A program made the position numbers and the translations under genes. Below, piece by piece: positions 10,884 through 64,000 of a stretch of 64,000 nucleotides of DNA. This stretch comes from Escallonia rubra (taxonomy: Eukaryota; Streptophyta; Magnoliopsida; Escalloniales; Escalloniaceae). The stretch is taken from positions 1-64,000 of the forward strand of contig JAVXUO010001354.1 in assembly GCA_033065855.1 (NCBI GenBank). The letters are read 5' to 3'. The notes below the pieces were generated by a model that saw only the letters and a program-made list of their open reading frames with translations, was not told the DNA's origin and ran no database searches. The stretch's first letter is position 1; each line of letters starts with the position of its first letter.

Positions 10884-13451
10884 TCACCAGTGACCATTAC
10901 ATGAGCAAGATCCATGTTGGAACCGATGAAATCTGAAGTTCTCTCTTAAAACAATCTCCCTGTCATAAGCCCGAGATATCATTTTCATATCCGAGTGACA
11001 ATCACTGCACATACGTAGATTGTTGACAATGCGGATGGGAGTTCTTGTGGGAGTGGTTATGAGTCCAAATGCAACAGCCAGCTTCTCACTATGTTGAGAT
11101 GATGGGGCTGCTTCTTCCTCTTCATGTAGTCTTCCTTTCTGACCTTCAATCTCATCCAGCATTGAGTAAATTTCTGCATATTTAGTGTCAGAGAAATCCC
11201 CAGATGTAAACTTGTGAACAGTTCCATTATGTTCAATAAGACTACATCCAAGTTGCTTCTGCACTCCTATTTCCTTCATCTTTCTCCTAACCCAACTCAT
11301 ATCTTCCCATCTTTTGGCTTTTGCATATATATTTGAAAGGAGTACATAAGCTGAAGCATTTGAGGGATCCATCTTTATTATACGTTCAAATGCATGTTCT
11401 GCTAATTTGACCTTATGGTATGTTGCACATGCTCTCATCAAGGAACTCCATATAGATGCATCTGGTTCAATAGGCATGGTCTCTATGAACTCTTTTGCGT
11501 CTTCCAGGCGCCCAACTCGGCCTAGGAGATCAACCATACATCCGTAATGCTGAACTGCAGGTTTAAGATTGTAGACAGTCCTCATCTTGTTGAAGTACCT
11601 GTAGCCCTCATCAACCAAACCTCCATGGCTGCAAGCAGATAGCAGAGCAATGAAAGTGATGTGGTCCGGCTTTATCCCTGACACCTCCATTTCCATGTAA
11701 AGAGCAATTGCTTTGTGGGGTTGGCCCTCCATGGCATGTGCTGCTATCATTGCTGTCCACAAGAACACAGTTTTCGCCTTTATTTCAGAAAACACTTCCT
11801 TCGCTTTATGAATGCTCCCACACTTGCCGTACATGTTTACCAGGGCAGTAGCCAATTTGTTATCTACTGCAATTTGATTCCTTTTAATATGAGCATGGAC
11901 CCAAATGCCATGATTTAGGGCTCCAACAGAAGCACAAGAAGAAAGCAAACTGACCAAGGTGAGGCTGTTGGGTTTCACCTTAGAACCCTGCATCTCGCGA
12001 AACAAATCAAACAGTTCCTCAAACAGATGAAACTTGGTGTAGCAATTCATCATAGTGTTCCAAGAAACCTCATCTTTCTCAGGCATCTTTTCAAAGAAAA
12101 TCCTTGCCTTCTCTATTTCTCCACTCCTGCAGTATCCATCCAACATCGAGTTCCACGAGACGACATTTTTGCCGGGCAACTGCTCTAGAACCTTGTTAGC
12201 CAAATCTAGTAGTTTACATTTTGAATACAAGTCTATCAAAGAATTCCCCAGGAACCCATCTATGATCATTCCGTACTTGACAACCAAGCCGTGGATAGAT
12301 CTGCCTAGAATGATATATTCCATGTGAGCACAAGCTGAAATGACTGTCAGAAGAGCTACCTCATCTGGCCTCACATTTTCAAGTCTCATTTCTCTGAACA
12401 ACTCCAAACTTTTGCTGTAGAACCCACCCTGAACATAACCCGAAATCATCGTAGCCCACGTTATCAGATTCTTCTTCCTTGTCTGGTTAAACAAGTGCCT
12501 AGCCGCAGTAAGGTCACCAACTTTCACAAATCCACTGATCAAGGTAGTCCACAAGACAACATCAGTAGTTTCACTCTCACAGCTACCCAGGAGCTTGAAT
12601 GCTTTTCTCATCTCCCCACACTTGATATACATATCAACTAGACAATTCAACAAGCTCCCACTAGTATCCAAACCATTCTCCTCAGCATAAAGATGCAAAC
12701 TCTCTCCCATTTTCAAATCTCTCAACTTGGAACAAGCTGATACCAAGCTGATCATCGTTATCTCGTCGGGTTTAATCCCATCAGCCAACATCTTCCCAAA
12801 CAGATCCAGTGCCTCCGTGAACAATCCCAGCCGAACGTAGCACGAAATCATTGTGTTCCAGGTTATAACATCTCTGTCAGGAAAGTTCTCAAATAGTTGT
12901 CTCACTTCCTTTAATCTGCCATCTTTCGAGTACATACCCATCAGATTGTTATTTAGGGACCTACTAATTCCAAACCCAGACTTCAAAATTCTTCCCTGAA
13001 CTTCACTTGCTTGTAGAATATCAAAATCCTTACAGCATGCATGAAGCAAGAAGTGAAATGTAGTGATATCTAACATAATCCCCTGAGAAACCATCTGATA
13101 GTAAGTCAAGAACACTTGTTTTGGCCACCCATCTTGGTCTTGAAGTTGGTTTTCCAAAAGGGTGTTCCAAACTTTGGTCTCTGGCATGCATTGTTGACTA
13201 AAAATGAGCCGAGCGTAATCCACGTTTTCAATCGAGACAAAGAACTGGAGAATAAGACTAGCAATAAGAGGGTCTTGGATGAGATTTGTGGTGATCAAGT
13301 GGGCATGAATTGGAAGAAATTCTTTGGTATTTGAGCAAGATTTGAGAAATGAGATGCAGTGCTGTGTTGGATCAGAGATGCTTCTTGTGGCTTTCACTGT
13401 AGGAGAAGGAATGGAAGAGAAGATGGTGGAGGGATGGGCTATGCTAGCCAT
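10884..13451 (-). CDS. PLS-class pentatricopeptide repeat protein with a DYW-type C-terminus
   Basis: An intronless frame of 855 codons with a clear ATG at 13451. The N-terminus (MASIAHPSTIFSSIPSPTVK) is Ser/Thr-rich and lacks acidic residues, as in plastid or mitochondrial targeting peptides. Repeated PPR motifs (such as VITWNTMISCYVRLGLF, VVSWNSMLDGYCRSGEI) fill about residues 90-680, followed by E and E+ motifs. The DYW deaminase-like domain has HSE at 787-789 and CSDCH at 815-819, the zinc and catalytic signature. These proteins bind organellar RNA and usually direct C-to-U editing. The last three residues are GHW rather than the canonical DYW. Such genes are usually intronless and about this length. 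The editing site cannot be deduced here. Confidence 0.92.
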   Translation of the reverse strand: MASIAHPSTIFSSIPSPTVKATRSISDPTQHCISFLKSCSNTKEFLPIHAHLITTNLIQDPLIASLILQFFVSIENVDYARLIFSQQCMPETKVWNTLLENQLQDQDGWPKQVFLTYYQMVSQGIMLDITTFHFLLHACCKDFDILQASEVQGRILKSGFGISRSLNNNLMGMYSKDGRLKEVRQLFENFPDRDVITWNTMISCYVRLGLFTEALDLFGKMLADGIKPDEITMISLVSACSKLRDLKMGESLHLYAEENGLDTSGSLLNCLVDMYIKCGEMRKAFKLLGSCESETTDVVLWTTLISGFVKVGDLTAARHLFNQTRKKNLITWATMISGYVQGGFYSKSLELFREMRLENVRPDEVALLTVISACAHMEYIILGRSIHGLVVKYGMIIDGFLGNSLIDLYSKCKLLDLANKVLEQLPGKNVVSWNSMLDGYCRSGEIEKARIFFEKMPEKDEVSWNTMMNCYTKFHLFEELFDLFREMQGSKVKPNSLTLVSLLSSCASVGALNHGIWVHAHIKRNQIAVDNKLATALVNMYGKCGSIHKAKEVFSEIKAKTVFLWTAMIAAHAMEGQPHKAIALYMEMEVSGIKPDHITFIALLSACSHGGLVDEGYRYFNKMRTVYNLKPAVQHYGCMVDLLGRVGRLEDAKEFIETMPIEPDASIWSSLMRACATYHKVKLAEHAFERIIKMDPSNASAYVLLSNIYAKAKRWEDMSWVRRKMKEIGVQKQLGCSLIEHNGTVHKFTSGDFSDTKYAEIYSMLDEIEGQKGRLHEEEEAAPSSQHSEKLAVAFGLITTPTRTPIRIVNNLRMCSDCHSDMKMISRAYDREIVLRENFRFHRFQHGSCSCNGHW

Positions 13452-27835: not shown

Positions 27836-29053
27836 ATGAAGGTTATCAGCTGGAACTGTAGAGGGTTAGGTCAAGCCCTCACGGTTCAGACAATCTTCAA
27901 TTTAACTCGAATACACAAACCGTTTTGTGTATTCCTTCAAGAAACTAAACTTCTTTATACTCAAGTTTCGACTTTTTTCTCTCGAATATGTTATTCTTAT
28001 ACTACGGGCACTGACCCTACCGGAGTACTTGGCTCAAAAGGTGGTCTGTGGGTTGGATGGACGGATGATGTTAACGGTTGTGTGCTTCATACGGATAAAC
28101 ATATTATTCTTGTCCAGTTCCAATTCAGATTCGAGCCCCCATGGATATCGGGATTTATTTATGGACAACCAAATCTATCAAAAAGGAAATCTGCGTGGTC
28201 GAGAATATCACGCGTCCTATCATCTCTACGTTATCCTCTTGTTCTATTGGGAGATTTTAATCAAGTATTGGCTCCGTCGGACAAATGTGGTCCCCACTAT
28301 CTCTGCATCCCTGGACATAAGCTATTGGCAGAGTTTCTACAGTTCCACAATCTTTTAGATCTTAAATGGGTGGGACCACCGTTCACCTGGACAAATAATA
28401 GGGATGCACAATCTTGCACCTATGAACAGATTGACAGAGGCTTCGCAGATCCAAGCTGGATTTTGAGCTTTCATAATGCCCATATACAAAATCTTGGAAT
28501 CCAAACCTCTGACCATGCTCTGATCCTCTTAAATCTCAAACCTCTTGATCAATTCCTCCCTCGACCCAAACATTTTGAAGATATGTGGCTTAGACACCCT
28601 GAAGGCAAACAAATAATACAGATCGCCTGGTCTACTTTTATTCCTGGTTCTCCCTTATTCAAAGTTATGAACTGGGGGAAGATCATGATGAGCATCATGT
28701 ATCGCTGGAATAAAGAAAAAATTGGCAACCTTACAATCCAAATCTCAAATGTAAAAGCCCAACTTCTACACTTCCAGTCTCTCCTACCCCATCCGAATGC
28801 GCAATTACTTGAAAAAAATGCCATGAGAACTTTGGACGAACTGTTGGAGCGAGAAGAAATCTTATGGGCTCAAAAGTATCGAATTCGATGGCTCCAACTA
28901 GGTGATCACAATACTAAATTTTTTCACACTGCCACTTTGATATGGAGAAACTCTAACAAGATATCATCCATCAAAGATGAATCGAGTCATCTCTGTGCTA
29001 CCAATTCATCAATCTCAGCCTGTCTGATTAGACACTTCACAAAAATCTTTTGA
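27836..29053 (+). pseudogene. LINE ORF2, apurinic-like endonuclease domain
   Basis: A clear ATG opens MKVISWNCRGLGQ, the standard start of plant L1 ORF2. It continues with QETKL, a GDFNQVLAPSDKCG active-site block and SDHALILL near residue 220-230, all hallmarks of the endonuclease/exonuclease/phosphatase fold that nicks target DNA. About 405 codons are open, then TGA at 29051-29053. The reverse-transcriptase part continues in the same frame after two further stops, so the polyprotein is broken. Confidence 0.85.
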
Positions 29054-31257
29054 CCCCTGCACTAAGAGGATAACACGCCACATATACATCAATCCTTGTC
29101 TACTATTTCAAAAACCCTCATGCCCCATCAATCTGACTGGTTGGCAAGACCCTTCACTGCATCAGAAGTTACAAAGGCCCTCTTCTCCATTCACCCTCTA
29201 AAAGCCCCGGGCCCAGATGACATTCCAGCTATAGTCTACCAACAGTGCTAGTCTTTTTTAGAACGACCAATCATGGCTGCGGTTCTGTCTTTCCTACGAT
29301 CTGGACATCTTTTATCAGAGGTAAATAATTCCTTTCTAGTCCTCATCCCAAAAATTAAACATCCATCCCAACCTGGTGACTACAGGCCAATCTCTCTTTG
29401 CAATACGATCTACAAAGTCATATCCAAAACTTTGGCAAACCGTGTCAAATCTGTCATACACCACCTCATCTCGAAGGAACAATCAGCTTTTATCCAAGGA
29501 AGATTTATTTCGGATAACATCCTCATTGCCCAGGAACTGACAAAAAAGATTCAGAAACATAATGAAGCTAGCAAGATGCTAGGGGCTATTAAAATGGACA
29601 TGAGTAAAGCTTACGATCGAGTGAATTGGACCTTCCTCGAAGCTACCCTCAAGCATATGAATTTTCCCTGCCACCTAATTTGCCTCATCATGACGTGTGT
29701 CTCCTCGGTTTCATATCAAATTCTCATCCATGGATCACCTTCATCGAGAATTCTTCCCACCTGTGGACTAAGACAAGGTGACCCAATATCACCTTATCTT
29801 TTCATCATATGTGCCGAAGCTTTGTCATCCGCGCTTATCCATGCGCAGACCACTGGAATGATCAAAGACATTAAGGCAGGTATTCGCAGCCCACCTGTAA
29901 ACCATCTACTTTTTGCAGATGACACACTGATTTTCACAGAATTCTCAAGCCAATCTGAAGTGCACTTGGCTAATATTTTGTTCACCTACTGTATGGCCTC
30001 TGGTCAACAAATCAATCATAAAAATCATCCATAACGTTAAGCCCCAACACTACTCTGGCAAGGTCCATTCAGATAACCCGACAGATGGGAATCACTGCAT
30101 CTACATGCTTTGGGAAGTATCTGGGAGGATCTCTGGATATTATCACCCATCGGAAATAATTTTTCTGCCTCCTTGTAGAAAATATTTGACAACGGTGTGC
30201 GGGGTGGAAAGGAATCTTACTCAATAAAGCTAGTAGAGCCACCCTCATCAAATCAACTTTATCGACCCTACCTCAGTATCAAATGCAGGTATTTCTTTTT
30301 CCACGTTATGTGTGCAAGCTAATCAATTCCATAATGCGACAATTTTGGTGGTCGGGTAACGACAACGGGCGGAGTATCTATTGGATTAGCTGGAGACATC
30401 TCTGTGCACCAAAGGCAATGGGAGGATTGAGTTTCTGCGATACCCACCTACTCAACAAAGCTTTGCTTGCTAAAACAAGCTGGCGAATAATGAATGACCC
30501 TGACAGCTTTCTGACAAAAGTCCTCTTGGGGGAATATTGTGTCCGTAACCCTTTCTCTAACTGCCCAATAAAAGGTAATTTTTCTTGGGTTGGCAAAGCA
30601 TTTTGGCTGGTAAACAAGTTCTATCTCTCGGACTCAGATGGCAAGTTGGGACTGGATCGAATATCTCTATCTGGAACGATCACTGGATCCCGAATATTGA
30701 CAATTTCCTTGCCGATGAAGTGAATCATCTGTCAAATAGGGTGGACCTTCCGGTGAGGGTTTATGATCTGATTGATCGAAACAAGTGGGATGAGGATCTT
30801 TTCTTATCTCTCTTACCACAACATCTGTAAATAAGATCCTTGCCATACACGTCTCAAACCACCCTTTAGCTGACCAACTGGTTTGGAAGGCAACAAGCTC
30901 TGGCACCTATTCGGTGGCTTCAGCATACAAGTTGCTTTACCATAACTTTGCTTCTGACCAGCGTCTAAATCCGCAACAAAACCTGCCTTCCTCTTGTGAC
31001 GAATCCTTTTGGACCAAATTATGGTCACTTCCCTTGCCTCCTAAAATTATTTATCTTTTTTGGCAAATCTTTGGGACCGGCTACCAATTAAATCAAAACT
31101 CTGCCATCTTAATATTATTAATAACCCTTTAGGTCCCCTTTGCTCTCTCGAACCTGAAACCTTAAATCATTTATTTCTTCGTTGCCCTGGCATCCGTCTC
31201 ATTTGGTTTGGAGGACCGCTTTGTTTAAAAACCGACTTCATGTTCCTCATTCCGTGA
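29054..31257 (+). pseudogene. LINE ORF2, reverse transcriptase and zf-RVT region
   Basis: In the same frame as the endonuclease, stops TAA (29063-29065) and TAG (near 29249) precede an open stretch at 29273-30034. That stretch has the RT motifs PGDYRPISLCN, KMDMSKAYDRVNW, GLRQGDPISPYLF and the catalytic LLFADDTLIF. Frame is then lost; later frames read FWWSGND..., WVGKAFW..., IWNDHWIPN and the zf-RVT-like segment (FWTKLWSLPLPPKI, LNHLFLRCPG). The catalytic Asp pair is intact, but at least three stops and several frameshifts separate the domains. Confidence 0.82.
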
Positions 31258-32425: not shown

Positions 32426-35356
32426 TCAACACATATGTGAAGTTAACATATTGTAAAATATACTCACATGTAACTTCTCTGGCCTTCCTGCTTGTCTTTG
32501 TCTTGCATCAACACATATGACAGGTACATTTTCCATATTTGATTCAGCCATAGCAGTTGCTTTTTGGGGCACATTTCCCTGTCCATTGCATGTTCTTTGG
32601 TTGTGGCCATACTTCCCACATTTGCCACAAGTCATTTTCCCTCTCTTTCTACTTAGCTTAGTAGCACCTTTAGGGTCATCTTCATCCCTTCTCCTAACCT
32701 TTCTTGGCCTTCCGGGTTGAGTATGATGAATTGGAGGAAGAAGTTTAGGATTACCACTAGACTCCCAAAGGTCTGGACCATTGATTGGGTGGATGAGGTT
32801 CTCATATATCTTAATCTGAGTCTCTCTTTTGTAACAATGATGCACCCATTCCTCTGGTCTCATCCCTTTGTTTATGCCATTTGCCTCATCAGAGTATATG
32901 GCAGAAATAGCATGAGGGCAAGGGATGCCACTGAGGTCCCATCTTCTACATGTGCAAGTCCTATCTCTCAAATTCACAACATACTGAGCACTAAAGGGAC
33001 ATCTAAGCTGGTACTCATATCCCCCATTCCAGGTGCTAATACACTCATTTGACCTAGCCTTGTTCTTCTCAACTATTTCTTGAATATGAGGTGTATTCCT
33101 CCCATTGTGCTTCTTCACCTCATCTTTTTTCTTGTACATTTTTTTCATTAGAAGAACTCTAATCCCTTCAAGCATGGTCAAAATAGGTTTATCCCTAGTT
33201 TCCAAAATGAAGCTATTGAATTGCTCACAATAATTATTCAATAACTTATCACATTTAGGGAAAGTAGGAAAATGAGCCATGCTCCAGTGTTTGGGGCTTA
33301 CATTCATTAGCCATTGATAAGCTACTGAGTCATCCTTTTTCAAGTTCTCCATTATTCTATTAAAGTACCTCATTACAGATGCTTTGCTTGCATTTTGCAT
33401 GTAATCTTTCAGATTCTGTCCCTTGAACAACTTGCTATAATTTTTGTACATGTGCAACAAGCAAAATCTGTGCTCAGCATTTGGAAATACATCTTGTATT
33501 ACTGGAACCAAACCCTTCATTTTAACATTTTTTCAAATTAAAATTGGATCACAATAATAGTTGATGAAAATCATAATCAAGATATAAGGTTTTTTGTAAT
33601 TTACCTTTTGCCTATCTGAAATGAATGTCCACTCATGCTGATTTTGATTCCCATTGCCTATGTCCCTCCCAAGCAGTCCCATAAACCATGTCCATGAACT
33701 CTTATTCTCTGCCTCTACCACTGCATATGCAATTGGGAACATGCAATTATCTGCATCTATCCCAACAGCAGACAATAACAGTGAAGGGAAAGGACCCTTC
33801 AGAAAACACCCATCCAATCCAATGAATGACCTGCAATGTTTGAATCCTGCCTTACATGCTCTTAGACAAACATACAACCTCTGAAACCTATACTGATTTT
33901 CACCCTCTTCTATCTTCTTAACCACCATTGTAGTATCTGGATTGGTTATACAAACCTCATTACAGTAATCTCATATTCTCCTGTACTGCTCCAAATGGCT
34001 CCCATTGATCTCATCTAGTGCCTTCCTTTTAGCCCTGTAAGCCTGATGTTTACTTACACCAAGTATGAACTCATTTCTGGCAGCATCTTTCAAAGCAGGC
34101 ATTGGCATACTTGGGTTTGACTTAATCCTCTCCATGTAAGTCTTTGACAGCCACTTATAAGTGGCCCTCCTATGGTAATAAAGGGTAGGGCAATCATGGT
34201 CTTTAAAATATGTTTTCACCTGCCATGTTGTGGACCCCTGCCTCTTAGACCCATACAATGTCCACTTACAGTGTTCACTCCCAATGCATATTGCCTTCAC
34301 CCTAACCTTATCTTTTTTTACAAACTCTATCTATCTCCTCTTCCTTATAGCATACTCTTTAATTGCCACCTTGAATTCTTCCCTGCTAGCAAACAACATC
34401 CCCACTTGAAACTCTGGATCTTTCATGTCTCTGTCAGGCATAAATTGTGCATACCTAATCCTGCTAGCTTCTTCATCAGAGTCAGATGGCAGACTCCTTA
34501 ACTCATCTGACAATTCATAATGCTCATCCCTTCCCTCATTTGGTGCCTCAATCACCTCTAGGTTAGGGACTGTGTCAATCATCTTTTGCTTACCTCTGTT
34601 TCTCTGTGCAGCACCAACCAATTCAACAGCTGAACCCCTGTTTCCATCATTGGGCATGTCTTCCTCACTAAAGTCATAGGCACTGTCCTTAAAGTGGCCA
34701 TATCCTACATCAGCCTTACTATCAGCTTGACTACCATCTTCAGTCAAATCTTCATCACCATCTTCATCACTATCTGACCTACCATCTTCATTACCATCTT
34801 CAATACCACCTTCATTACCATCCAACCTACCATCTACATTAGTTACCTTATCTGATTGCTGAGTTTCAGGTACAATTTCCCTCAAAGGGCCAACTTGTTC
34901 ATTCCCCATAGCTTGACTTTGAGTACCATCAAACGGCCCCTCCAACTGACTACCATTTACATCCATCACATCCTGTGATACCAAAACCCCCCTCTCATCT
35001 GTCATACCCACTAATGTAAGGTCATCAATATTATCAACAATTAATGTTTCCCCTAGTTCCATGTATACCTCTATCACAGTATTAGGACCAATATACACCA
35101 TCGTATCTCTAATATCAGCATCATTCTTTAACCTTCTCAGCTCCTCATCTAAAGCCATACTAGGTACTCTATAGTGGAAATAACATTTTCCCTTATAATC
35201 CTCTTCTTCCACCATTGTAACAAACTCTTGTACTGAAAATAAATCACTGACACATGTCATAGTTGTCTACAACCCCACCCACGTATTCCATTGTTGGGAA
35301 ATACACAAAGTGTCCCCCATGGTGCAATTCAAGAGTAAAATAATCATACCCATTCA
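32426..35356 (-). pseudogene. mudrA-like MULE transposase, broken by two stops and a frameshift
   Basis: Reading leftward from an acceptor near 35356: a PB1-like N-terminal domain (DYFTLELHHGGHFVYF), a frameshift near 35245-35255, an acidic linker with DGNE/DEDG repeats, then the MuDR DNA-binding region (VGMLFASREEFKVAIKEYAI). It continues in the same frame past stops at 34331-34333 and 33971-33973. The DDE domain follows (FIGLDGCFLKG, TFISDRQK), then a 90-bp GT-AG intron (33604-33515), GLVPVIQDVFPNAEHRFCLL, a SWIM zinc finger (CTCRRWDLSGIPCPH) and a CCHC knuckle (CGKCGKYGHNQRTC). Such enzymes cut and join element ends. The stops are single-codon changes in otherwise continuous frames, so loss of function looks recent. 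Confidence 0.85.
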
Positions 35357-49828: not shown

Positions 49829-50343
49829 TAATAATTTATTAGCATTGAAAAAATCATTCAATATGTGTTTGGTTTTCAACTTTGGTCTTTTTTGGTGAGT
49901 TTTTTGTTTTTTGGAACTGTTTATTGCTATGTTATTGACAATGCAGGTTTGTTGCAGATGGGTTTTTTTTTTTTGTGTTCTTGTGGTTCTGATAGCGTTG
50001 ATGCTTTTCTAAGCCTAAAGTTTGGTACTCTCTATGATTTACGTACTTTCTTCCTTGGTAATATTCTCCTGGCATCAGATATTGCTTAGAAGTATATCCT
50101 CTGCAATTTTTATTACATGTCCCAAGGAAATTATAAAACTCCCTTTTACACAATTCATTTCATGCTTTTGTTGCCTGAATTTTGCTGCAACTGATGCGTC
50201 AATATAATCGGGTTTGGGTGAATGTACTAACATATGCTTGCTTTTGGCTTGGAATTTATAACTATCTTGGGAAAAAATCATTACAAATGAGTGTTGTTTT
50301 AGTGAACACGTGGTCGTAGAATAATATTCTTTTCAGAGTTAAA
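49829..50343. other. Spacer, no gene recognised
   Basis: T-rich sequence with short open frames in several phases, none with a recognisable motif. Confidence 0.4.
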
Positions 50344-50990
50344 TATGCGGTTGACCACGGTACTATAATGCAAATTTTACTTTGGTCATTGGACTTCAAT
50401 TTGTGTCGAAGTGACATTGGACTTGTCAATTTATCCAAATAAGTCATTTTGTTAGCTTCTGCGAACCCCATGTCTGTTAAGTGGCTTAATCCAAGAGCAA
50501 TTCCATCATTCTCTTCTCTTTTCTTTTTCTCTCTCATCTTCTCTTCTTCTTTCTCCTGTCACCACCACGACCAAGCCGCCGCTTCGCCCCACCACACCCA
50601 AGCCTCACCACCTATCACCATCACCACACCTTCATCACTGCCGCCATAAAAAACCCCTTCGATCTACTTACTTTTTTGAAAAGTTTTAATTCTTTGGAGG
50701 CAGGTCAGACCACCACCATGCCAACTCTGTTGCCATCGCCGTTGTTTCACAGCCACTGGCCCACTAGTATGACCCCAATTCTCACCACTCATCATCACCA
50801 ACATGCCAAAATCATCTGATCACAACTGCACCAAGCACCCACCCAAGCCCTCTTACACAATTCCTCTCCACCCATCTCCACCATCCATCATCATTTGACC
50901 ACCCACCCTAGCTGTTACCACTCTAATTTCAAAAACTGCTACCACTCTCTAGTATGCTGATCCACATCCATATCAAAACTTTGGATGTCC
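50344..50990. repeat. TE-like block, direct repeat of 46248-46770
   Basis: TATGCGGTTGACCACGGTACTATAAT at 50344 matches 46248 in the same orientation. Both are followed by a CATTGGACTTCAATTTGTGTCGAAGTGAC-like phrase and a CCACC/CAAGCC-rich interior. It cuts off the 3' end of the hAT transposase remnant that follows. Confidence 0.5.
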
Positions 50991-52587
50991 TTCATCAGAG
51001 CATCCTTGTCGGTTTAAACCTTGTCCACATTATTTCCCATAGGGGAATAGTGTTCATAGAGTCGATCCTTGAGAGACTTATAGTCATCAAACACTTTCTT
51101 TTGGTCGCAAGTAGGATATAACAGTCCCCAAGACTAAACTTCACATATTTTAACTTATAATAAGGATCTAAAATCACTGCAATGATCAACAACGAATTAA
51201 TTTTTTCAATGCTGCAATACATATCAAATTGTTTCCTCATTTTCTGGGCCACACTTCTAAATAAATTCATTATCAGTACCCGCCCAACTCAAGATAAGTC
51301 CTTGGATCCTATACATCTCATGAATACAAAGATTAGAGATTACATACTTAGCCCTAGATACTCGATAGCTTGCAACGTAACACTGCTCCAAGTAAGTGGT
51401 AAGACTTTTAACTGTCATCCAATCTTCTTCCGTAACGATGTGACCTACCTCAACTATGAAATTGCGATCATGCTCCTCTAACTTCTCAAACACCCTTTGA
51501 TACTCAAGCGCGGTGGTCAATATAAGATAAGTTATATTCCACCGCTTTTGAACATCCAAACACAAAGACCTCTTGGCTACAATCATTTCTTCCTCGACAC
51601 ATTGTTTAAAAACTTGCAATCGTGATGGAGAACTTCTCGCATATTTCACATAATCTCTTACACGTAACACCAACTCCTTATCTTCCTCAATCCCTTTTCT
51701 CACAATTAAGTTCAAAACATACGCAAAACATCTAAAATGCATACTCTCCACCCATACGACTCATTCTTCCTAGCAAATTCTGTTTTCAATTTCGAAAGTG
51801 CAACATCATTTGAGGAAGCATTATCCACACAACAATTGTACAAACTCTGTCACGGAATCCCCATTCTTTTAAGCATGTTCTAATAGCTTGTGCAATGTTT
51901 TCGCCCTTAAGTGGAGTAGGAAGCACATGAAAATTGAGAATCTTTTCTGTAACCTCCAATTCTTGTCGATGTAATGTGCTGTCAAGCACATATATCCAAG
52001 AGTTTGAATAGAAGTCTATAAATCTGTTGTGAAACACACTAACGAAACAAAACTTTCAAAGATTTGCTTGAGAATAGCTTTCTCACTCACATATATGGAT
52101 ATGCAATCTTTTGTGATTGTAGTCCGTGAAACAAGCTAAAATTTAGGTCGCATTGCATTTACAAAACTTTTAAACCCCTCTTTTTCCATAAAGCTAAAGT
52201 GTAATTCATCAATAATTATCATGCAGCAAGCTCCTTGCGACAAAAATCTTTATTAAAACTCGACCTCATCCTAATAACTTGGTCACAATTGTTGTTTGAT
52301 GATTGAGATGTAAGCAATTTTTGATATTCTTTGCAGCTATTATACACATGACTCGTGAGTGTACTAGTTCTAAAACTCCCCTTATCATTGCATGTCACAA
52401 ACACTCTGTTACTATACTTACAAATTGCTTCAATATCTATACCTTCATCATTTTTCACCACGTCAAAATGATCCCAAACATGAGATGTTAAATAAGTTTT
52501 CTTGCGCTTACCTTTACCTATGCCGCTGCGATTTCCTTCTTTAGGACTCACCACAGAACCAGTTGTTGTGGAGTTGCTCTCGTCCAT
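50991..52587 (-). pseudogene. hAT-family transposase (BED finger type), decayed and truncated
   Basis: The ATG at 52587 opens a Ser/Thr-rich leader and then a damaged BED finger region (TSHVWDHFDVV, a single C..., FRTSTLTSHV) at about 52510-52330. Later frames give the hAT core: KILNFHVLPTPLKGENIAQA near 51950, MHFRCFAYVLNLIVRKGIEE at 51750, SLCLDVQKRWNITYLIL near 51550, and IIAVILDPYYKLKYVKF near 51180. The C-terminal dimerisation region is absent, replaced by repeat DNA from about 50990. Multiple frameshifts and stops show a dead copy related to plant RICESLEEPER/DAYSLEEPER-like hAT proteins. Confidence 0.75.

Positions 52588-55247: not shown

Positions 55248-55296
<49 letters not shown>
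55248..55296. repeat. (TA)n microsatellite at the left edge of the giant element
   Basis: About 24 uninterrupted TA units immediately before GGGAGCTGATCCTTTG, the first base of the probable element. Insertion next to TA runs is seen for several plant DNA elements. Confidence 0.9.
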
Positions 55297-55299
<3 letters not shown>

Positions 55300-55346
55300 A
55301 GCTGATCCTTTGACAGCGTAGGCAAAATAGGATATCTTGCCAGCGC

Positions 55347-55386
55347 GATCTGGCCGTCCATCCCGAAGGGATGGACGGTCCAGATC
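55347..55386. repeat. Perfect-but-one hairpin near the left end
   Basis: GATCTGGCCGTCCATCCC, a 3-nt loop, and GGGATGGACGGTCCAGATC form a stem of 18 pairs with one bulged base. It lies 50 bp inside the probable left end and differs from the GTCCGCTA palindrome family. Confidence 0.8.
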
Positions 55387-55411
55387 ACTTTTTTTTGCGG
55401 CGCTGTCAGTC

Positions 55412-55622
55412 GTCCGCTACACAGTCTCGCGGACGGATCTTTTTACCATCTTGCCCTCGCTCACCCGTCCGCTAGACTGTGTAGCGGACGAACACATCCT
55501 CCGACAAAAAGTAGTCCGCTACACTGTCCAGCGGACGACTGTCATTCTGACAAAATTGTGACTTGTCTGACACAAGTGTGACTTGATGTCGGCAATTCTG
55601 TCCGCTACACAGTATAGCGGAC
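55412..55622. repeat. Palindrome cluster 1 (4 copies), left end of the giant element
   Basis: Copies at 55412-55434, 55467-55489, 55514-55536 and 55600-55622. Each has the arm GTCCGCTA and its complement TAGCGGAC (with one or two substitutions) around a 7-nt centre such as CACAGTA or GACTGTG. The whole element-specific cluster lies upstream of the transposase leader. Confidence 0.88.
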
Positions 55623-55699
55623 AGTATTGCCCATCCCCACTACTCAATTTTCTTTCAGCACAATTTTCTTCTACTCAATTCTTTCAGCACAATTTTCTT

Positions 55700-56138
55700 C
55701 TCCTTCAGACTCGCTTCCATTTCCAGCTGCCTTCAAGCTTCGAGTAACACTTGCTTCAAGCTTCGCTCAAGCAAGGTAAGTTTGCTTCAAGTTTTCTTGA
55801 TGTTCTAGAAATTTGTCACTGTATTCATCAATTTGTGATTTTATACTCTAGATTTTTTGTGATGTTCTAGACATGATGTTCATCAAAAAGGTATAATTTG
55901 TTAACTTTATATTTAATTCATTATAGTTTAATTCGATTTTTTGGCATGATGAATTCGTCTATTTATCTTACTAATTTAAATTTGTTATGTTCAATAAATT
56001 AATAATTGTTAATTTGGAGACACTTTTGAGATTATGCATACCGTATGTTTGCCATCCTAATTTTTAGGTAATATTTTCAGTTAGAAATGCCATTTGATTG
56101 TTAAGCGTAGTCTATTTCTACACAGCTCTTGTTTCACA
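55700..56138 (+). promoter_or_regulatory. Inferred leader of the transposase gene with an intron
   Basis: A donor GCAAG|GTAAGT at 55775/55776 and an acceptor ATTTTCAG ending at 56080 frame a T-rich 305-bp intron. The downstream leader 56081-56138 has one short upstream open frame starting at 56087 and ending after five codons, which could lower translation. The transcription start is not visible. Confidence 0.5.
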
Positions 56139-58436
56139 ATGTCTGATTTCGTGTCGAGCTCCAACGTCCCCGTAGATGCTAGTGATCCGTATCTAGGACG
56201 AACATTTGCTACGTTGGAAGAAGCTGAAGAATGTTTTCGAGCGTATTCATTGAGGGTTGGTTTTGGCATTAGAATAAAGACTTCAAGAACGAGCACCATA
56301 ACGAGAAAGATATGCTCTCGCTTATACGAGTGCCATAGGAGCAGAAACCCAGTGCAAAATGAGACATGTGTAGGCAATGATGACAGTGAGGACGAAATAG
56401 GATATCCGCGTAGAAGACGGGACTGCTTTGAGCGCACAAATTGCCAGGTCAAGATGTTCGTAAGCTACAAACCCAAACAAGACCATTGGCTTATTACCAG
56501 CCTGGAACTGGCACACAATCACCCGTTAGTAACCCCTTCTAAGGTGAGTGAGATGCATCAACACAAGAAGATGGGTAAGGTCGCAAGGAGCTTGATTCAG
56601 ACAATGAGCAATGCGCGACTAGGACCTACCGACATGATTAATGTTCTTGCTGAACAGGCTGGGGGAATTCAAAATTTGACCTTTAACACGACAGACGTTC
56701 GTAACGCGGTCCGAACCCATAGACGAGCCGCGTATGACCTCAATGATGCTCAAGCCACAATGAGCCTATTGAAACGGATGCAGATGGAGGACCCGCAGTT
56801 GACCTTCGATTATAAACTTGACGACGAGCATCGAGTTAGCACAATTTTTTGGGTCGACGGTCGTTCGAGGCTTGCTTATAAGCATTTTGGGGATGTCGTG
56901 ACGTTCGACACCACATACCGTACCAACAAGTACTCGATGCCGTTCGCCCCTTTCACGGGGGTCAATCATCATTATCACTCCATCCTGTTCGGGTTCGCCT
57001 TGTTACGGGACGAGACCGAGAGTTCTTTTGAATGGTTGTTTAGGACGTGGCTGGAAGCAATGAACTTCACAACACCCAAAGTGATCATCACCGATCAAGA
57101 TTTGGCAATGAAGAAGGCTATTGCGACCGTCTTCCCAGACACTCGGCACAACTTGTGCACCTGGCACATAAGCAACAAATACCCGGAACGGCTGCATCAC
57201 GTGTACGCAAAGTATCAAGACTTTAAACAGGATTTTGACAAGTGCGTCCTCAAGTCGTTAACGATTGAGGAATTCGAGGAGAGGTGGGAAAAGCTTGTTC
57301 GGGATTACTCATTGCAAGACAACGAGTGGCTCCAGCACTTGTACGAGCGCAAAGAGCAATGGATTGGCGTTTACACGAGGAGGTATTTTTCAGCGGGCAT
57401 GAAAACGACGGGCAGGAGTGAATCCATGAATGCCACGTTCGATAGTTATGTGGGTACAGCTACCAATTTGAAGACTTTCGTTGCATCCGCACAAAAAGCG
57501 GTAGCTTCGTTGTTCGTAAAAGAAAGGGCTGCCGACTTTGCAACAACGTACAAACAAAGGAGAACGTTGCTCGAGACCCCGCTGGAGATGAACGGTGCCA
57601 AAGTCTATACGAAGGAGATCTTCTTGCTATACCAAGTAGAGCTGCGAAAATCCGGACGATACAGTATAAACAAGGTGGCAGAAATGTCTACGCGTGAGTA
57701 CAAGGTTTATTCGCTCGTGAATGACCTAGTCCCTGAGAAGCTGCGCAGAATGTATACGGTGAGCCACGACACATTGACGGACTCGGTGACATGTGTTTGC
57801 AAGAAGTTTGAGTTCCATGGCATCCTGTGTAGACACGTTCTGCGGTTTTTCACCCAGAAGAATATCAGGACAATCCCCGATAAATACGTCTTGCCACGGT
57901 GGACAAAAGGTGCAAACAGGTTGCACGGTACCATTTCCTTTCCGGAGCACCCGTATACTGACTTTGAAGAATCAGAGACGTTGCGGTATAATCATCTGGT
58001 GACGATGTTCACCCGTTTGTCCGTAAAAGGTGCTGCTACAATGGTCGGTTATAAACATCTCCTCGAGGTAGCTCAGCAACAAGAGCCCATCGTCGACCAG
58101 TTGGAAGCAGCTTCAGTCACCAATGCGATTGACACCGAGCCTACGACGGGGGTATCAGAAGATGACGAGCCGGAGGAGGAAGACGACAATGATATCCGTT
58201 TGTTGGATCCAATTATATCGCAAACGAAAGGCCGCAAGAGATCTACGCGGATGAAAAGCTCTATTGAAACGGCAACTCAACCTAAAAAGCTGCGAAGGTG
58301 TGCATTGTGCAACAAAATGACCGACCACGACAAGCGGAACCATTACAAGGCACTGGGGATAAGTTCAAGGGGTTTGCAAGACGGGGAAGAAGGTGACGCC
58401 GAAGATGAGGACGAACAAGCTGCAGTGGACCTTTAA
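56139..58436 (+). CDS. FAR1-type MULE transposase, intact
   Basis: A 765-codon single-exon frame from the ATG at 56139; the frame upstream is open only from a TTG. A FAR1-type DNA-binding domain covers about 18-125 (F..LEEAEECFRAYSLRVGFG, then CQVKMFVSYK, HNHPLV). The MULE DDE domain has Asp at about 257 (VVTFDTTYRTNKYSMPFAPF) and about 319 (VIITDQDLAMKKAIATVFP). A SWIM zinc finger lies at about 552-571 (CVCKKFEFHGILCRHVLRFF). An acidic stretch follows, and near 721 a second Cys/His motif (RRCALCNKMTDHDKRNHYKA). It has the same domain order as the host transcription factors FHY3/FAR1, which derive from such transposases. Its setting among element-specific repeats and mobile-type genes favours a transposase over a host factor. 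Confidence 0.85.
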   Translation: MSDFVSSSNVPVDASDPYLGRTFATLEEAEECFRAYSLRVGFGIRIKTSRTSTITRKICSRLYECHRSRNPVQNETCVGNDDSEDEIGYPRRRRDCFERTNCQVKMFVSYKPKQDHWLITSLELAHNHPLVTPSKVSEMHQHKKMGKVARSLIQTMSNARLGPTDMINVLAEQAGGIQNLTFNTTDVRNAVRTHRRAAYDLNDAQATMSLLKRMQMEDPQLTFDYKLDDEHRVSTIFWVDGRSRLAYKHFGDVVTFDTTYRTNKYSMPFAPFTGVNHHYHSILFGFALLRDETESSFEWLFRTWLEAMNFTTPKVIITDQDLAMKKAIATVFPDTRHNLCTWHISNKYPERLHHVYAKYQDFKQDFDKCVLKSLTIEEFEERWEKLVRDYSLQDNEWLQHLYERKEQWIGVYTRRYFSAGMKTTGRSESMNATFDSYVGTATNLKTFVASAQKAVASLFVKERAADFATTYKQRRTLLETPLEMNGAKVYTKEIFLLYQVELRKSGRYSINKVAEMSTREYKVYSLVNDLVPEKLRRMYTVSHDTLTDSVTCVCKKFEFHGILCRHVLRFFTQKNIRTIPDKYVLPRWTKGANRLHGTISFPEHPYTDFEESETLRYNHLVTMFTRLSVKGAATMVGYKHLLEVAQQQEPIVDQLEAASVTNAIDTEPTTGVSEDDEPEEEDDNDIRLLDPIISQTKGRKRSTRMKSSIETATQPKKLRRCALCNKMTDHDKRNHYKALGISSRGLQDGEEGDAEDEDEQAAVDL

Positions 58437-58587
58437 TTTTTTGTACAACTTTATGACATTTGTAATAATATTCGAGGGATAATTTTTCGACCGGGTACTG
58501 GAATTTTTTTAAAATGGACCTATGAGAGGCCATCGAATCAAATCTAAAGTCTTTATTACGAGGTTTTTTTTTTTATTTTGTAATCCC

Positions 58588-58818
58588 CGTCCGCTATACA
58601 ATGTAGCGGACATCATCGACTTTGGTCTTTTACGTCCGCTATATTGTATAGCGGACGGGTGGCATCGAAGTAAAACTTTTGGTCTTTGTATGTCCGCTAT
58701 ACAATGTAGCGGACGTTAGAGCAGGCAAACTTTTGGTCTTCTTTACTGTCCGCTATATAATATAGCGGACGTCATAACTTTTGGTCTTCTTTCATGTCCG
58801 CTATACAATGTAGCGGAT
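58588..58818. repeat. Palindrome cluster 2 (5 copies), between transposase and B3 genes
   Basis: Copies at 58588, 58634, 58692, 58748 and 58796, each 23 bp, with centres such as TACAATG and TATTGTA. Spacers repeat the phrase TTTTGGTCTT, giving a loose 46-58-bp periodicity. It starts about 150 bp after the transposase stop codon and ends about 180 bp before the B3 start codon. Confidence 0.9.
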
Positions 58819-58995
58819 AAGTCTATATGATATATATTAATCATATCGGGCAATCGGCTGTTATCAGTCCAATCTGGAGGCCACTCTCTCTGTCTGGAAC
58901 ATCTAGCCCAGGCCACTACTCCATCTCCGGCGACCCACATCTCCGGTGACCCACAACTCCGGCGATAAACCGTCCCCCCCTCAACGCCGACCTCG

Positions 58996-59459
58996 ATGGC
59001 TTCTGGATCGGAGACCACCTACGATTTTATTGGCAACTTGCACCTGGCAGGCAAACACTTTTTCAAAGTCATGATGCCGGGGTTTGAGAATGAACTTGTA
59101 TGCCATCCCTCTATCTCTGTATTTTCGTGTGTTAAATCTTTTGGTTAAAAACTAACCTATTTGTTGTGTATTGTGTTTGTTAGGACATACCGGAAGCCTT
59201 CACCAATCAATTTACAACAATTCATGACAGTGCAAGATTATATAGCCGCAAGGGGGCATGGCAGGTTGAAATCAAGCTGAAGCCCGGCCGACCCCAAAAA
59301 AAGCAATTCGCAGAGGGTTGGAACGTCTTCGTGCGCCAGCATGGCCTCGAACTCGGGGACTTTGTAGTGTTTGAACACCTTGGGTGGTGGGATTTTCAAG
59401 TTGTAATCTTTGATCGGAGCACTTGTGAAAAAATTTCTTTCCCCCAATGTGAACCCTAA
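58996..59459 (+). CDS. Small stand-alone B3 DNA-binding domain protein
   Basis: Two exons (58996-59097, 59184-59459) joined in phase 0 (GAACTT|GTATGC, GTTAG|GAC) encode 125 residues. Nearly the whole protein is one B3 domain: HFFKVMMPGFENELDIPEAF at the start, WQVEIK and a basic KPGRPQKKQF loop in the middle, and WNVFVRQHGLELGDFVVFEH with FQVVIFD at the end. B3 domains bind DNA in the major groove and occur in plant transcription factors such as the REM, ARF and ABI3 families. This one has no other domain. Its position between two clusters of one palindrome suggests the palindrome as a ligand, which is inference. It could also be a captured host REM fragment that remained open by chance. Confidence 0.82.
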
Positions 59460-59591
59460 TTTATGATTAATAAAATAATTTGAGTTCTTGTTGATTGTGT
59501 TTCGAAATTTTTCCTCGCTTAATTGTGTCGTTTGAAATAGCCTCGATATATTGAGATACCCTCGATAGTGAATGATAGGTTGAGATTTTAC

Positions 59592-60223
59592 GTCCGCGAT
59601 ACAATGTAGCGGACCACACTTAGCGCAGCATTTTACGTCCGCGATACAATGTAGCGGACGGCGCAGCAGTCATTTTACGTCCGCGATACAATATAGCGGA
59701 TGGCGCAGCAGAAACAGAAACTTTCATTTTACGTCCGCGAGACAATGTAGCGGACGGCGCAGCAGAAACATCACCCATCAACACTTAGAAAAATTTGGTC
59801 TTCATTTTACGTCCGCGATACAATGTAGCGGACGGCGCAGCAGAAACATCACCCATCAATACTTAGAAAAATTTGGTCTTCATTTTACGTCCGCGATACA
59901 ATGTAGCGGACGGCGCAGCAGAAACTTCACCCATCAACACTTAGAAAAATTTGGTCTTCATTTTACGTCCGCGAGACAATGTAGCGGACGGCGCAGCAGA
60001 AACATCACCCATCAACACTTAGAAAAATTTGGTCTTCATTTTACGTCCGCGATACAATGTAGCGGACGGCGCAGCAGAAACTTCACCCATCAACACTTAG
60101 AAAAATTTGGTCTTCATTTTACGTCCGCGATACAATGTAGCGGACGGCGCAGCAGAAACTTCACCCCTCAACACTTAGAAAAATTTGGTCTTCATTTCAC
60201 GTCCGCGATACAATGTAGCGGAC
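59592..60223. repeat. Palindrome cluster 3 (10 copies), partly a 78-bp tandem array
   Basis: Palindromes start at 59592, 59637, 59679, 59733, 59811, 59889, 59967, 60045, 60123 and 60201. The last six are exactly 78 bp apart. All use the arm variant GTCCGCGA with TAGCGGAC, and two have GAGACAATG in place of GATACAATG. Each is followed by GGCGCAGCAGAAAC, and the 78-bp units also share CACCC.TCAACACTTAGAAA. The array fills the space between the B3 stop codon and the 3' end of the oppositely directed protease gene. Confidence 0.93.
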
Positions 60224-60408
60224 GGCGCAGCAGAAGAACTTAGAAAATTTTTGCACCATTTCGTTTTCCACATTTCAATCATTCCCAATGAGGCCAAAAA
60301 ACTAACAACGTTCATCAGAAAAATCAGTATTCGACAACAGAAATCAACACAAATCAAATCACACCAATGGCGTACGGTTTATGTAAAAAATACTGTTATG
60401 ATACAATT

Positions 60409-63400
60409 TCAACTGGGGTCCGCATGTTGGGGCGGATTCTCGTCATTAGCCGGATTTTCTATAAACCTAACCGCTCTAGGCCGGCCTTTCATAATTTGCC
60501 AAGCCATTCTATATCTATAGCCTTCAACTTCTGCTTGGCTCCAGACGGTCGCCTTGAGGCTCTCAGAGCGACAAATGAAATCCATGTACATGCAAAGGAA
60601 GACGCCGCAGTCCGAAGTGTTACGTTGCTTGGGCCTCCTCTTCTTCAATCGCCTATTGAGATTTGGCCGCGCCGGTACGGGGACATCACGGACACGATTG
60701 ACCATTGCACAAAAAATATTCTGCGAGAAACAGAAAATGGCGTAAGACACGAGTTAAAATTTATGGCAAGATAGAATCAGAGAATTATACAGCGTCCGTA
60801 ATATTACCAACGCGTCCAACTGGGCTTTGTACATGTGCAGCACAGGCATCTGATGAGTATCGTCGTGGAGACTGTCGATCACCGATACGACTTTAGTTGT
60901 TGGGGAGTAGCAAACCAAGTACCAGTGGCTGTGCCCTAGAAATGGGATTAGAAACACATCGGCAACACTTGCGCTCACCGGACTATCCCTATTAAGATAC
61001 GCTCGTAGGTTAACGGACGGTCTCCACTGGGCCAACTTTTTCTTCCCCCTATTTTCGACCCACTCATGCCATTCAGACACTAGCATCTGATGAAAAAAGG
61101 CATCGAACAGAAAAACGGCCGGATAGGTCGGCTGCTGCCGACACCTTTCCCTCAGAATCTCCACGTAGGTGGAGACGACACCGTTGTCTAACCAACTCCC
61201 CGGAGCCAGCGAGGCCATTTCTCCCCACGAGCAACTGTAATCCATGCCCTCCGGATGATCCACACTATACAACGCTTGGTCATGCGGGACGCCGCTAAAA
61301 TAACGCTCTCTGATTATCTGGCATTTCTGCGGCTTTAGGGGCTTCAACGGATGCCCTTTGCGATATTGCCCTCGGGGGTCGACCGGGGGGTATTGCACTC
61401 CGTCGGGGGGGTCGACGGGGGGATATTGCACTCCTTCGGGGGGGTCGACGGGGGCATATTGCACTCCTTCAGGGGGGTCAACGGGGGGGTATTGCCCGCC
61501 TTCGGCAATAGATGGTCCTGCCCACGGGACAATGGGCAGACTGATGTTTCCGAAACCCCAGTCTTGCGTGACTTGACTCTGAGAGAGGGGTTGGGGTTCC
61601 GAATCCAATAGTAAAGAGAAGGAGGGCGCACTGTAATCTTCCCACGGCGCTTGAGCCTGGCCCATGGTGCTTGGCGGTCCCCAATCACCACCCATCTCCG
61701 GTACAGAGGGAAAACCATATCCCTGGCTCACTCCCGAAGTCTGTTCCGAGGGATCGGTGCATCCCTCGGGAACAAACGGCCGCTGCCACCCCGGATAACC
61801 CATTCCCGGGTTTGGCTGTCCCGATGCTTGCCGCAAAAAATTCCCGCAGCCAACCGCCAACACTTCAGCCTGTTGGCGAAGCTCCTCGCCCATGGCATCC
61901 ACCAAATCCTTCCGCTCGCTCAACTTCTGGAAGAAGGCGAACGAGGCATTAACCTACATCCAGAGAGATAATAAATAAGTAACTTCGTACACACTTAGAA
62001 TGATCAAGTTCAATTAGAAGCACTGGTTGGGCAACTTACCAGATTGTATGCCATGTGCTCATCGATCTGACCCCTAGGGTGGTACTTCTCCCCGCGTTCA
62101 AACCTTACTGGAGCTACTCTCCTCCGGGTGATGCGGTAGTACCACTCATTGTACTGTTCGATGCTGATGACAGGGTCAGGCTCCGACACAATGGCCGCCA
62201 GCGTGTCCTGCCAAGAATTCCAGACCTCAATTTCACGCGCGCACAACTCGTGCGCATTCGCCCTGCCAAACAGTCCGACACCCGGTGGGTTCCTGTTAAG
62301 CCTCATATCTGGCGCGCCGGCTGGCAACCCCTGCAGGTAGTCAAAATGGCGCATAGCGCGATCCGGCAGCTGCCACTCTGCGACCTCGAAGTGGATCAGG
62401 GGTGTGCGTTGCAACCCGGAGAGCGTGAAGACGAACGACTCTCCCACCCGTCGCGCCAAACGTTTGTACGGTGCCCATCGCATCTGGCCAGGAGATAACG
62501 AGTCGAGCTCCCCCCGATAGTATGAAATGTTGTGATGGGGATCGTCTCTCCTCTCGTAGTGGGTTTCCTTCCGGCTGTACTCCCAGGCGCACAACCGAGG
62601 CCACACATTATCTGTTCCGTCCCCACGCCTGGGTGCGCCGGTAGCAAGGTGTTCATAAGACCACACCTGAGAGCAAAGACATTAAAAAAAGTATCGTCAA
62701 CATTTATTGTCCATTCAACAAAAAAAAAAAACAACAAAGAGCACGTAATGAAGAATTGTATGATATACCTGCAATAGCGAGAGACATGCACATATCGCTT
62801 TGGAGTCGGGCCTCGTTGCCTTGTGCAATGCTCGGTACAGGTATGCAAGAGTTGCTGCACCCCAGGCATAATCCCCAACCTCAGCCAGGTTACGCAAAAA
62901 CGGTAAATATTTGACGCTGATCGTGTTCTTCGACGTCGTTGGGAATAATATTGCCCCCATCACCCACAAGAGGAAGGCTTGTGTGTACAGCACAAGGTCA
63001 TGGCCCGTATAGTTTTCCGGCAAAACCCCGTAGGTATCTACCAACCACTTCAACTTGATACCACCACTGCTAAATCCATCCTGGGGTATCGAAGTAAAGA
63101 AGTCCCTAGCGGTCCTCTTATTCGTTGCTTCGGACGGATGAGCTATTACCTTCCGCCCCGTCACCGGTAACCCTAAGATGAACCCTACATCTTCTAGGGT
63201 AATTGTCATCTCTCCGAGAGGGAAGTGAAACGTATTCGTTTCACTTCTCCACCTTTGAACAAGGGCACCTATTAAGTGCCGGTCAAGTTGTTGAAAGATC
63301 TGCCCATGCGTGAAAATCCCAAACCCAATCCCACGCAGTAATCTTTTCTGGGTTCTGTTCAATTTCCAGGCGTTGAAATTATCGCTTACTTCTACCGTGT

Positions 63401-63606
63401 TGACAAGTGCTCTTTCCTACGAATTAGTAAATATTATTTAAGCAAAATAAACACTATACAACGTTCGCAACTGAAATACGTAAGCAAAATAAACGATATA
63501 AACGATAAAATAAGTATCTTACTCCACCATCCCATATGAGCGTACTGATATGGGATGCTTGGTCGTATAATACGGACGAATCTTCTGGTCCAGGGTTGAA
63601 ATCCAT
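60409..63606 (-). CDS. Plant mobile domain - Ulp1-type cysteine protease fusion, intact
   Basis: Five exons (63606-63523, 63416-62769, 62666-62040, 61953-60808, 60720-60409), all introns phase 0 with GT-AG borders, give 938 residues without a stop. Residues about 15-430 form a plant mobile domain (aminotransferase-like, MAIN type): RTQKRLLRGIGFG, FHFPLGEMTITLEDVGFILG, then DYAWGAATLAYLYRAL and W.YEHLATGAP. A Pro-rich linker has four EGVQYPPVDPP-type repeats (604-648). The C-terminus is a C48/Ulp1 peptidase with His796 (HSHWYLVCY), Asp813 (VVSVIDSL), Gln867 and Cys873 (NTSDCGVFL), the full catalytic set. Ulp1 enzymes cleave SUMO-like modifiers. Host mobile-domain proteins act in silencing and genome stability, and both domains occur in plant TEs. 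It may counter silencing (inference). Confidence 0.85.
61363..61505 (-). repeat. 33-bp in-frame tandem repeat in the protease linker
   Basis: About four units of 33 bp coding the 11-residue motif EGVQYPPVDPP with small changes (GGQY, YAPV, DGVQ). The GC-rich units look recently amplified. Confidence 0.85.
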
Positions 63607-63986
63607 TTTTTGCAACTGAAATAATGGAAAGAGGGCAAGGTTGGAAGCGTAAACATTCCCAAACATACAACGCTAGCATATTCAGCGCTAGCATGTGATC
63701 AGATAATACGCAATACACATATATAATATATATGTATATACATTGACAAACGCTAGCATAGTGCCGATCTACTTGCCAACGCCGCAAGATGAACTCTAGA
63801 TTATGAACAGAGAAAGGATTAGTTTGTGAACTTACGTGATTGATGAGACGATTAAAGGATTTCTTGCAAAGAAATTACGCCGATCTACTTGCCAACGCCG
63901 CTTGTTTGATCGTGAGAAGAATGAATAGTTTGATTGTGAGAAGAAGGAATGAATAGAAGTTTAGAAGGCTTCGAATGCTTGCCAAC
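63607..63986 (-). promoter_or_regulatory. Upstream region of the PMD-Ulp1 gene with a short direct repeat
   Basis: Should hold the promoter and leader of the leftward gene. GCCGATCTACTTGCCAACGC occurs at 63763 and again at 63880, about 117 bp apart, and GCTTGCCAACG recurs at 63977. GAATGAATAGTTTGA / GAATGAATAGAAGTT words repeat at 63920-63960. A binding-site role is inference. Confidence 0.45.
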
Positions 63987-64000
63987 GTCCGCTACACTGT
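63987..64000. repeat. Start of a further palindrome, cut by the window edge
   Basis: GTCCGCTACACTGT matches the first 14 bases of the cluster 1 copy at 55514 exactly, and not the variants of clusters 2 and 3. This fits the start of the right-terminal cluster of the same element. Confidence 0.75.

Follow-up and report, generated by a model that had tools for sequence, protein, structure and literature searches.

Organization of the element

We analysed a stretch of 64,000 nucleotides from Escallonia rubra (positions 1-64000 of contig JAVXUO010001354.1, whose numbering is used throughout), referred to below as the window. Its right side is occupied by a Mutator-like element (MULE) with three genes, which encode a FAR1-type transposase, a B3-domain protein, and a protein joining a plant mobile domain (PMD) to an Ulp1-type protease domain; clusters of one palindrome lie between these genes and at the element ends. 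Other copies and contigs of the same 566-Mb assembly are denoted by L and C names, respectively.

The left end of the element (55297) exactly abuts a 49-bp (TA)n microsatellite (55248..55296, no strand), which marks the left side of the insertion site and is the only tract in the window with at least 10 perfect TA units. The left terminal inverted repeat (55297..55491, plus strand, approximately 195 bp) recurs in the inverted orientation with one mismatch at the right end, which is contig position 64335, that is, 335 bp past the window, and is followed by a further 21 bp of (TA)n. The total length of the element is 9,039 bp. An earlier note on this DNA had proposed a single young MULE with three genes inside, spanning 55297..64000, and had held that the lack of a matching inverted end within a few kb beyond the window would refute it; the end is present, and of the proposed boundaries the left one is retained, while the right one moves to 64335. 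Long terminal inverted repeats are a hallmark of MULEs. Another one, a target duplication of 8-11 bp, is masked by the TA repeat at this locus and was observed in a sister copy on C17, which is situated outside TA repeats and has a perfect 9-bp duplication ATTAAACAA.

The transposase gene (56139..58436, plus strand) is a single open frame of 765 aa with FAR1 (48.9 bits), MULE (PF10551, 113.1 bits against the cut-off of 27.6) and SWIM (23.1 bits) domains, all scoring above the Pfam cut-offs. DDE-like motifs, with the presumed catalytic letters, are found at residues 255, 317 and 425. The B3 gene (58996..59459, plus strand, 125 aa) consists of two exons (58996-59097 and 59184-59459) separated by a GT..AG intron; its Pfam score is 41.2 bits at the cut-off of 30.1, and the closest solved structures, both weak matches, are VRN1 (E 0.0096) and At1g16640. 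The PMD-Ulp1 gene (60409..63606, minus strand, 938 aa) has five exons (63523-63606, 62769-63416, 62040-62666, 60808-61953 and 60409-60720), and all its introns are GT..AG. The PMD match covers residues 71-420 (244.8 bits, cut-off 34.9) and the Ulp1 match, residues 707-910 (Peptidase_C48, 53.8 bits, above the cut-off). The three genes of the earlier note were thus recovered with the same lengths, the transposase as an uninterrupted frame and the other two as spliced genes.

The young family and its insertion sites

Using the first 1.7 kb of the element as a query (40 of 2853 candidates scored), we found at least 40 places matching at 98-100%. Twenty of these copies, including the one in the window, were read; they were selected by the transposase end, so that short forms are under-sampled. 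L010 and L012 have a common flank, leaving 19 independent loci, and the assembly may hold both haplotypes locally, which makes the copy counts inexact. Pattern searches allowing for at most 3 mismatches yielded 329 matches of a terminal 45-mer, 520 of a B3 48-mer, 250 of a transposase pattern and 220 of an Ulp1 pattern, and none for the reversed controls. The family is large and young. In the 20 copies the transposase is 98.7-99.8% identical at the DNA level to that of the window copy; 16 of them have an uninterrupted transposase frame with its start and stop, as judged from each copy's own letters. In seven copies (the window copy, L018, L019, L020, L022, L024 and L027), each of the three genes is open and has its start, stop and splice sites. 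The terminal-pattern matches also include pairs of ends 0.3-1.9 kb apart on C687, C979, C2458, C2465 and C2632.

The gene order is common to many copies. For at least 92 of the 150 top-scoring PMD places, a B3 place that is itself among the 150 top-scoring ones lies within 7 kb and is arranged as in the window copy; two other PMD-B3 pairs, on contigs with neighbouring copies, are arranged otherwise. The explanation that the three genes are adjacent merely by chance was rejected, given the inverted ends, the copies and the common gene order.

The left ends are situated in TA-rich repeats in all 20 copies (in 19, a perfect alternating TA of at least 10 bp; in L025, an imperfect one), and so are all 16 right ends found; in the other four copies, no right end was seen within the stretch that was read. 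Five of the 20 left flanks end in the tip of another element, ATCAGCTCCC, across the TA tract, forming a modular array joined by TA. In L009, at approximately 3900-10000 (64.9-71 kb of the contig), the element is adjoined by two more, with the related tips GGGAGCTGATTC and GGGAGTTGATCC, palindromes and a broken PMD-Ulp1 gene. The element has terminal repeats, is inserted in a TA repeat, belongs to a large young family and has a sister copy with a 9-bp duplication; it is therefore a microsatellite-targeting MULE of the FAR1 type.

Sister subfamilies

The earlier note held that the element would be refuted if the three genes occurred separately. B3 matches do outnumber those of the other genes, and 34 of 100 exact B3 places among the matches listed share a contig with a listed exact transposase place. 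We read two B3 places that are absent from the PMD list, on C17 and C103. The C17 copy has all three genes, with B3 exons 99.6-100% identical in DNA and a single 1-base gap within PMD exon 2. In C103 (L038), where B3 occurs without a match of the transposase pattern, the reading covered the transposase-to-B3 side and the palindromes, and the order is transposase, palindromes, B3, palindromes; the transposase is 92.8% identical in DNA over the part read. By its sequence, C103 represents a third subfamily. Because it combines a diverged transposase with palindromes and B3, a diverged subfamily accounts for at least part of the B3 surplus, and in this surplus place the transposase and B3 are in order rather than apart.

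Palindrome arrays

The palindrome GTCCGCNANANNNTNTNGCGGAC (GTCCGCTACAC..GTGTAGCGGAC) has 19 matches in the window at up to 2 mismatches, compared with a shuffle mean of 0.01. The matches form three clusters of 4, 5 and 10, as described earlier, and the whole element adds a fourth one at its right end, for a total of 23 palindromes: four per end, five in the gap between the transposase and B3, and ten in the gap between B3 and PMD-Ulp1. Cluster 1 (55412..55622; no strand is assigned to any cluster) is located inside the left terminal repeat and adjoining it; cluster 2 (58589..58818), between the transposase and B3 genes; cluster 3 (59592..60223), mostly within a 78-bp tandem array; cluster 4 starts at 63987..64000 and runs past the window.

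One explanation is that the palindromes are plain binding sites of the transposase, with the inner arrays titrating or regulating it and neither PMD-Ulp1 nor B3 touching them. In its favour, four palindromes at each end are retained in all 16 copies with both ends, including three deletion copies of 2.8-4.6 kb that no longer have the inner clusters and have lost portions of the genes, and long terminal repeats of MULEs are known to contain transposase sites (PMC3310237). The inner array agrees with this explanation less well. In the window copy it is larger than the end sets and its half site is changed (GTCCGCGATA vs GTCCGCTACA). Its length turns over fast, cluster 3 comprising 8-13 palindromes in 13 other copies with separate clusters 2 and 3, and this resembles the targets of the VANC proteins of VANDAL MULEs, which consist of short motifs repeated in tandem in non-coding DNA (PMC5735166). 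We consider the transposase-site explanation a serious possibility, somewhat short of an even chance. Variable tandem arrays in non-coding DNA are a VANDAL/VANC trait, and the palindrome is a candidate target motif.

In L014, L015, L021 and L025, B3 is wholly or partly deleted, and the right edges of these deletions are inside cluster 3, each at a different position. The palindrome arrays may promote B3-removing deletions.

The PMD-Ulp1 gene

The linker between the two domains contains 11-aa tandem peptide repeats in variable number, and the protein length ranges from 925 to 959 aa in the seven all-open copies. The Ulp1 part is a predicted protease: it aligns to SENP2 including the His, Asp, Gln and Cys positions, presumably the catalytic ones. 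The H, D, Q and C motifs are present in the window copy, in all 16 other copies holding the region, and in one older copy (L013).

Between the window copy and C17, synonymous change is similar in the transposase (0.018) and Ulp1 (0.019). Relative to the transposase, amino acid change is approximately 6 times higher in Ulp1 (p = 1e-6) and 5 times higher in the linker (p = 3e-4), the PMD is not clearly faster (p = 0.07), and B3 has one change. The fast change of Ulp1 would reflect either shifting targets or lately relaxed constraint. Kinship of the PMD gene with DUF1985 was also considered and dropped, as the E-value of 0.018 obtained on one exon weakened to 0.2 on the whole protein.

The B3 gene

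B3 is open in 13 of the 20 copies and not whole in the other seven. All seven deletions have different edges, and hence no B3-less lineage has spread among the copies read. Between the window copy and C103, 3 of the 375 exon sites of B3 are changed (two amino acid changes and one silent), compared with 7 of 84 aligned intron sites and 37 of 243 sites in the flanks, so that the exons are better kept than both the intron (p = 4e-4) and the flanks (p = 5e-13). In the transposase part compared, the rate of synonymous change (dS) is 0.16 and the ratio of amino acid to synonymous change (dN/dS) is 0.19. As the exons are almost unchanged between subfamilies whose transposases clearly differ, B3 is probably in use. 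Their near-identity could result from strong selection on the exons or from exchange between the subfamilies; the divergence of the intron argues against an exchange that included the entire gene. A search for the host gene from which B3 derives gave no source among the best 150 of 1401 candidates, which are near-identical to one another.

Older relatives and the age of the gene set

With an older PMD-Ulp1 region as a query, 40 of 1882 candidates were scored, at 76-100% identity, the query included. In three older copies, which were read on the transposase side, the transposase has 73-86% amino acid identity in eight of the nine aligned pieces and 55% in one. Their palindrome array starts 135-310 bp past the transposase and reaches the PMD-Ulp1 match. 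B3 is absent from all three older copies tested, and the 464-bp B3 gene is too long for the interval. The majority palindrome is GTCCGCTACACTATGTAGCGGAC in three of the four older copies counted and GTCCGCTACACTGTGTAGCGGAC in the fourth, with the half site nearly unchanged. Between the older copies and the window copy, dN/dS is 0.28-0.33 for the transposase (from rows L033-L035; the other rows, mixed with young copies, were dropped). In the PMD it is 0.29-0.36, in the linker 0.45-0.49 and in Ulp1 0.38-0.46. Because of the stop codons in the older copies, these values understate the constraint.

Since the older relatives hold the transposase, the palindromes and PMD-Ulp1 in the same layout and without B3, these three are old companions and, on the dN/dS values, constitute an old, selected unit. 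B3 is then most simply a gain in the young branch, the alternative being its loss in the older copies, of which three were tested. The earlier note had combined the three genes into one self-regulating element around a private palindrome, possibly with an anti-silencing arm. One MULE with a common gene order is what we observe, while the private system of B3 and palindrome is not supported: nearly the same palindrome occurs in the same places in the three older relatives without B3, so it is not confined to this element, nor was B3 the first protein to read it, and seven of the 20 young copies are without a whole B3.

The narrower claim, that B3 nevertheless binds the palindrome and thereby regulates the element, has some points in its favour. 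B3 has a palindrome cluster on either side, the one upstream of its start being cluster 2; the same is true of C103, and the B3 exons are strongly kept. On the other hand, a near-identical half site is found both at the ends and in the array of the three B3-less older copies, and we regard such self-regulation as unlikely.

A more sceptical explanation is that both accessory genes are passengers, that is, pieces of host genes captured by a successful MULE and useless to it. MULEs often capture genes (PMC2528002, PMC13317346), and the patchy presence of B3, incomplete in seven young copies and missing from the older ones, would fit. On the other hand, PMD-Ulp1 is constrained across the split from the older family (dN/dS 0.29-0.46), the B3 exons are far better kept than the intron and flanks between subfamilies, and the deletions of B3, each with its own edges, have founded no lineage among the copies read. 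The passenger explanation had seemed doubtful from the start, and because of the B3 exon comparison we now give it a still lower probability.

At 2125-3957 of L031 (minus strand), a few kb away from one of the young copies, on C2451, we observed a transposase that is more distantly related, with 30-37% identity.

Comparison with known elements

MuTAnT and AutoMuTAnT of Medicago resemble the element in being MULEs inserted in (TA)n, with a Jittery-like transposase where the element has a FAR1-type one, and with a 9-bp target duplication where it is visible; TA-repeat MULEs with a transposase alone were already known. AutoMuTAnT has one gene in 4.9 kb compared with three genes in 9 kb here; most MuTAnT members are 200-300 bp long, whereas short forms are under-sampled in our set (PMC4486113). 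SaTar elements of guayule and rice are likewise MULEs in TA microsatellites stacked in end-to-end arrays, and an ancillary targeting system was proposed for them; they have few autonomous partners, several called defective, and accessory genes are unreported in the part of the source available (PMC5907723).

Ulp1 genes downstream of MULE transposases, reversed in some elements, are also known, from KAONASHI and from the ULP MULEs of melon and grapevine; a PMD fusion, a B3 gene and palindrome arrays are not reported for these in the accessible part of that work (PMC2528002). PMDs inside MULEs were described in grasses and Amborella, where the PMD is fused to the transposase, in contrast to the separate gene fused to Ulp1 here, and such PMD genes were speculated to be anti-silencing tools (PMC5418596).

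The VANDAL/VANC system and KIU share with the element a fast-evolving accessory protein, tandem peptide repeats and an arrayed motif in non-coding DNA (PMC5735166, PMC10398659, PMC13317346). The variable parts of VANC often hold peptide repeats (PMC5735166), and some VANC proteins carry Ulp1 (PMC13317346). VANDAL ends are degenerate, unlike the long terminal repeats here, and VANC has DUF1985, in place of which we find a PMD. Because of its long ends and the lack of DUF1985, the element is not a VANDAL.

In the literature searched, there was no joint mention of "plant mobile domain" and "Ulp1", and no B3 gene in a MULE was apparent among the papers listed. As far as searched, what is new is that a MULE of this type carries a PMD fused to Ulp1 as well as a B3 gene, that its palindrome arrays are shared and turn over, and that so many copies in the family are long and open. 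Most of the known microsatellite-targeting MULEs are short and non-autonomous; here, a young family has many long copies, several of them with all genes open. It offers a selected PMD gene that is fused to a SUMO-type protease and lies beside a repeated motif, the candidate target, and copies with and without B3 in one genome provide a natural comparison, making the element a good test case for the choice of landing sites and the resistance to silencing.

Possible roles of the accessory genes

We consider it reasonably probable that the element is a young MULE whose transposase is of the FAR1 type and whose gene content is that of an autonomous element, that it inserts mostly into (TA)n, and that PMD-Ulp1 is its core accessory gene and B3 a later addition. 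The transposase would bind the terminal palindromes and perform cut-and-paste insertion. PMD-Ulp1 would find the element copies via the palindrome arrays and strip SUMO or SUMO-like tags off chromatin factors there, which might ease silencing or help insertion. B3, possibly a REM-like DNA-binding gene, would have entered the element when the older family had already branched off but the young subfamilies had not yet separated, and may now serve as a further factor for transcription or targeting. By analogy, the rapid evolution of PMD-Ulp1, its variable peptide repeats and the variable palindrome arrays point to a possible VANC-like anti-silencing function.

If extended further, this reading would make PMD-Ulp1 a second, separately evolved sequence-specific anti-silencing system of MULEs, acting by de-SUMOylation at palindrome arrays; the branch that gained B3 would then have multiplied rapidly, reaching hundreds of copies inserted in TA repeats, and the missing microsatellite-targeting factor might be among these proteins. 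We put this extension forward very tentatively and think it rather improbable.

Several observations weigh against these readings. The dN/dS of Ulp1 between the window copy and C17, 1.7, is indistinguishable from 1 (p = 0.45), so relaxed constraint fits as well. DUF1985, the VANC domain, scores below the cut-off in the whole PMD-Ulp1 protein (12.0 bits, E 0.2, cut-off 35.1). Synonymous sites of B3 are also kept between the window copy and C103, with 1 of 76 changed compared with 41 of 284 in the transposase; this odd silent-site conservation would also fit exchange between the subfamilies. Within the 20 copies there are too few B3 changes for a selection test. In 19 copies (L012 dropped), C-to-T singletons per site-copy number 35/11,165 at CG, 21/7,917 at CHG and 30/26,904 at CHH, that is, 2.8 and 2.4 times the CHH value at CG and CHG, respectively. 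This pattern suggests that the copies get methylated, and any anti-silencing would hence not be lasting. Finally, no empty site was found, either at the window locus, where a second copy of the whole left flank was sought, or at C17, where the 40 candidates scored included a 45-base piece at 93% and otherwise old repeats at 68-77%, none of them across the junction.

Other frames in the window

Judging from translations, the window appears to contain traces of other mobile elements. Two long frames at 32426-35260 (minus strand) resemble a MuDR-type MULE transposase with a SWIM-like and a CCHC-like finger, and broken frames at 50262-52587 (minus strand) resemble a hAT-type transposase. Frames similar to those of long interspersed nuclear elements, with endonuclease and reverse transcriptase parts, and a frame similar to pentatricopeptide repeat proteins are observed at 27836-30034 (plus strand) and 10884-13451 (minus strand).

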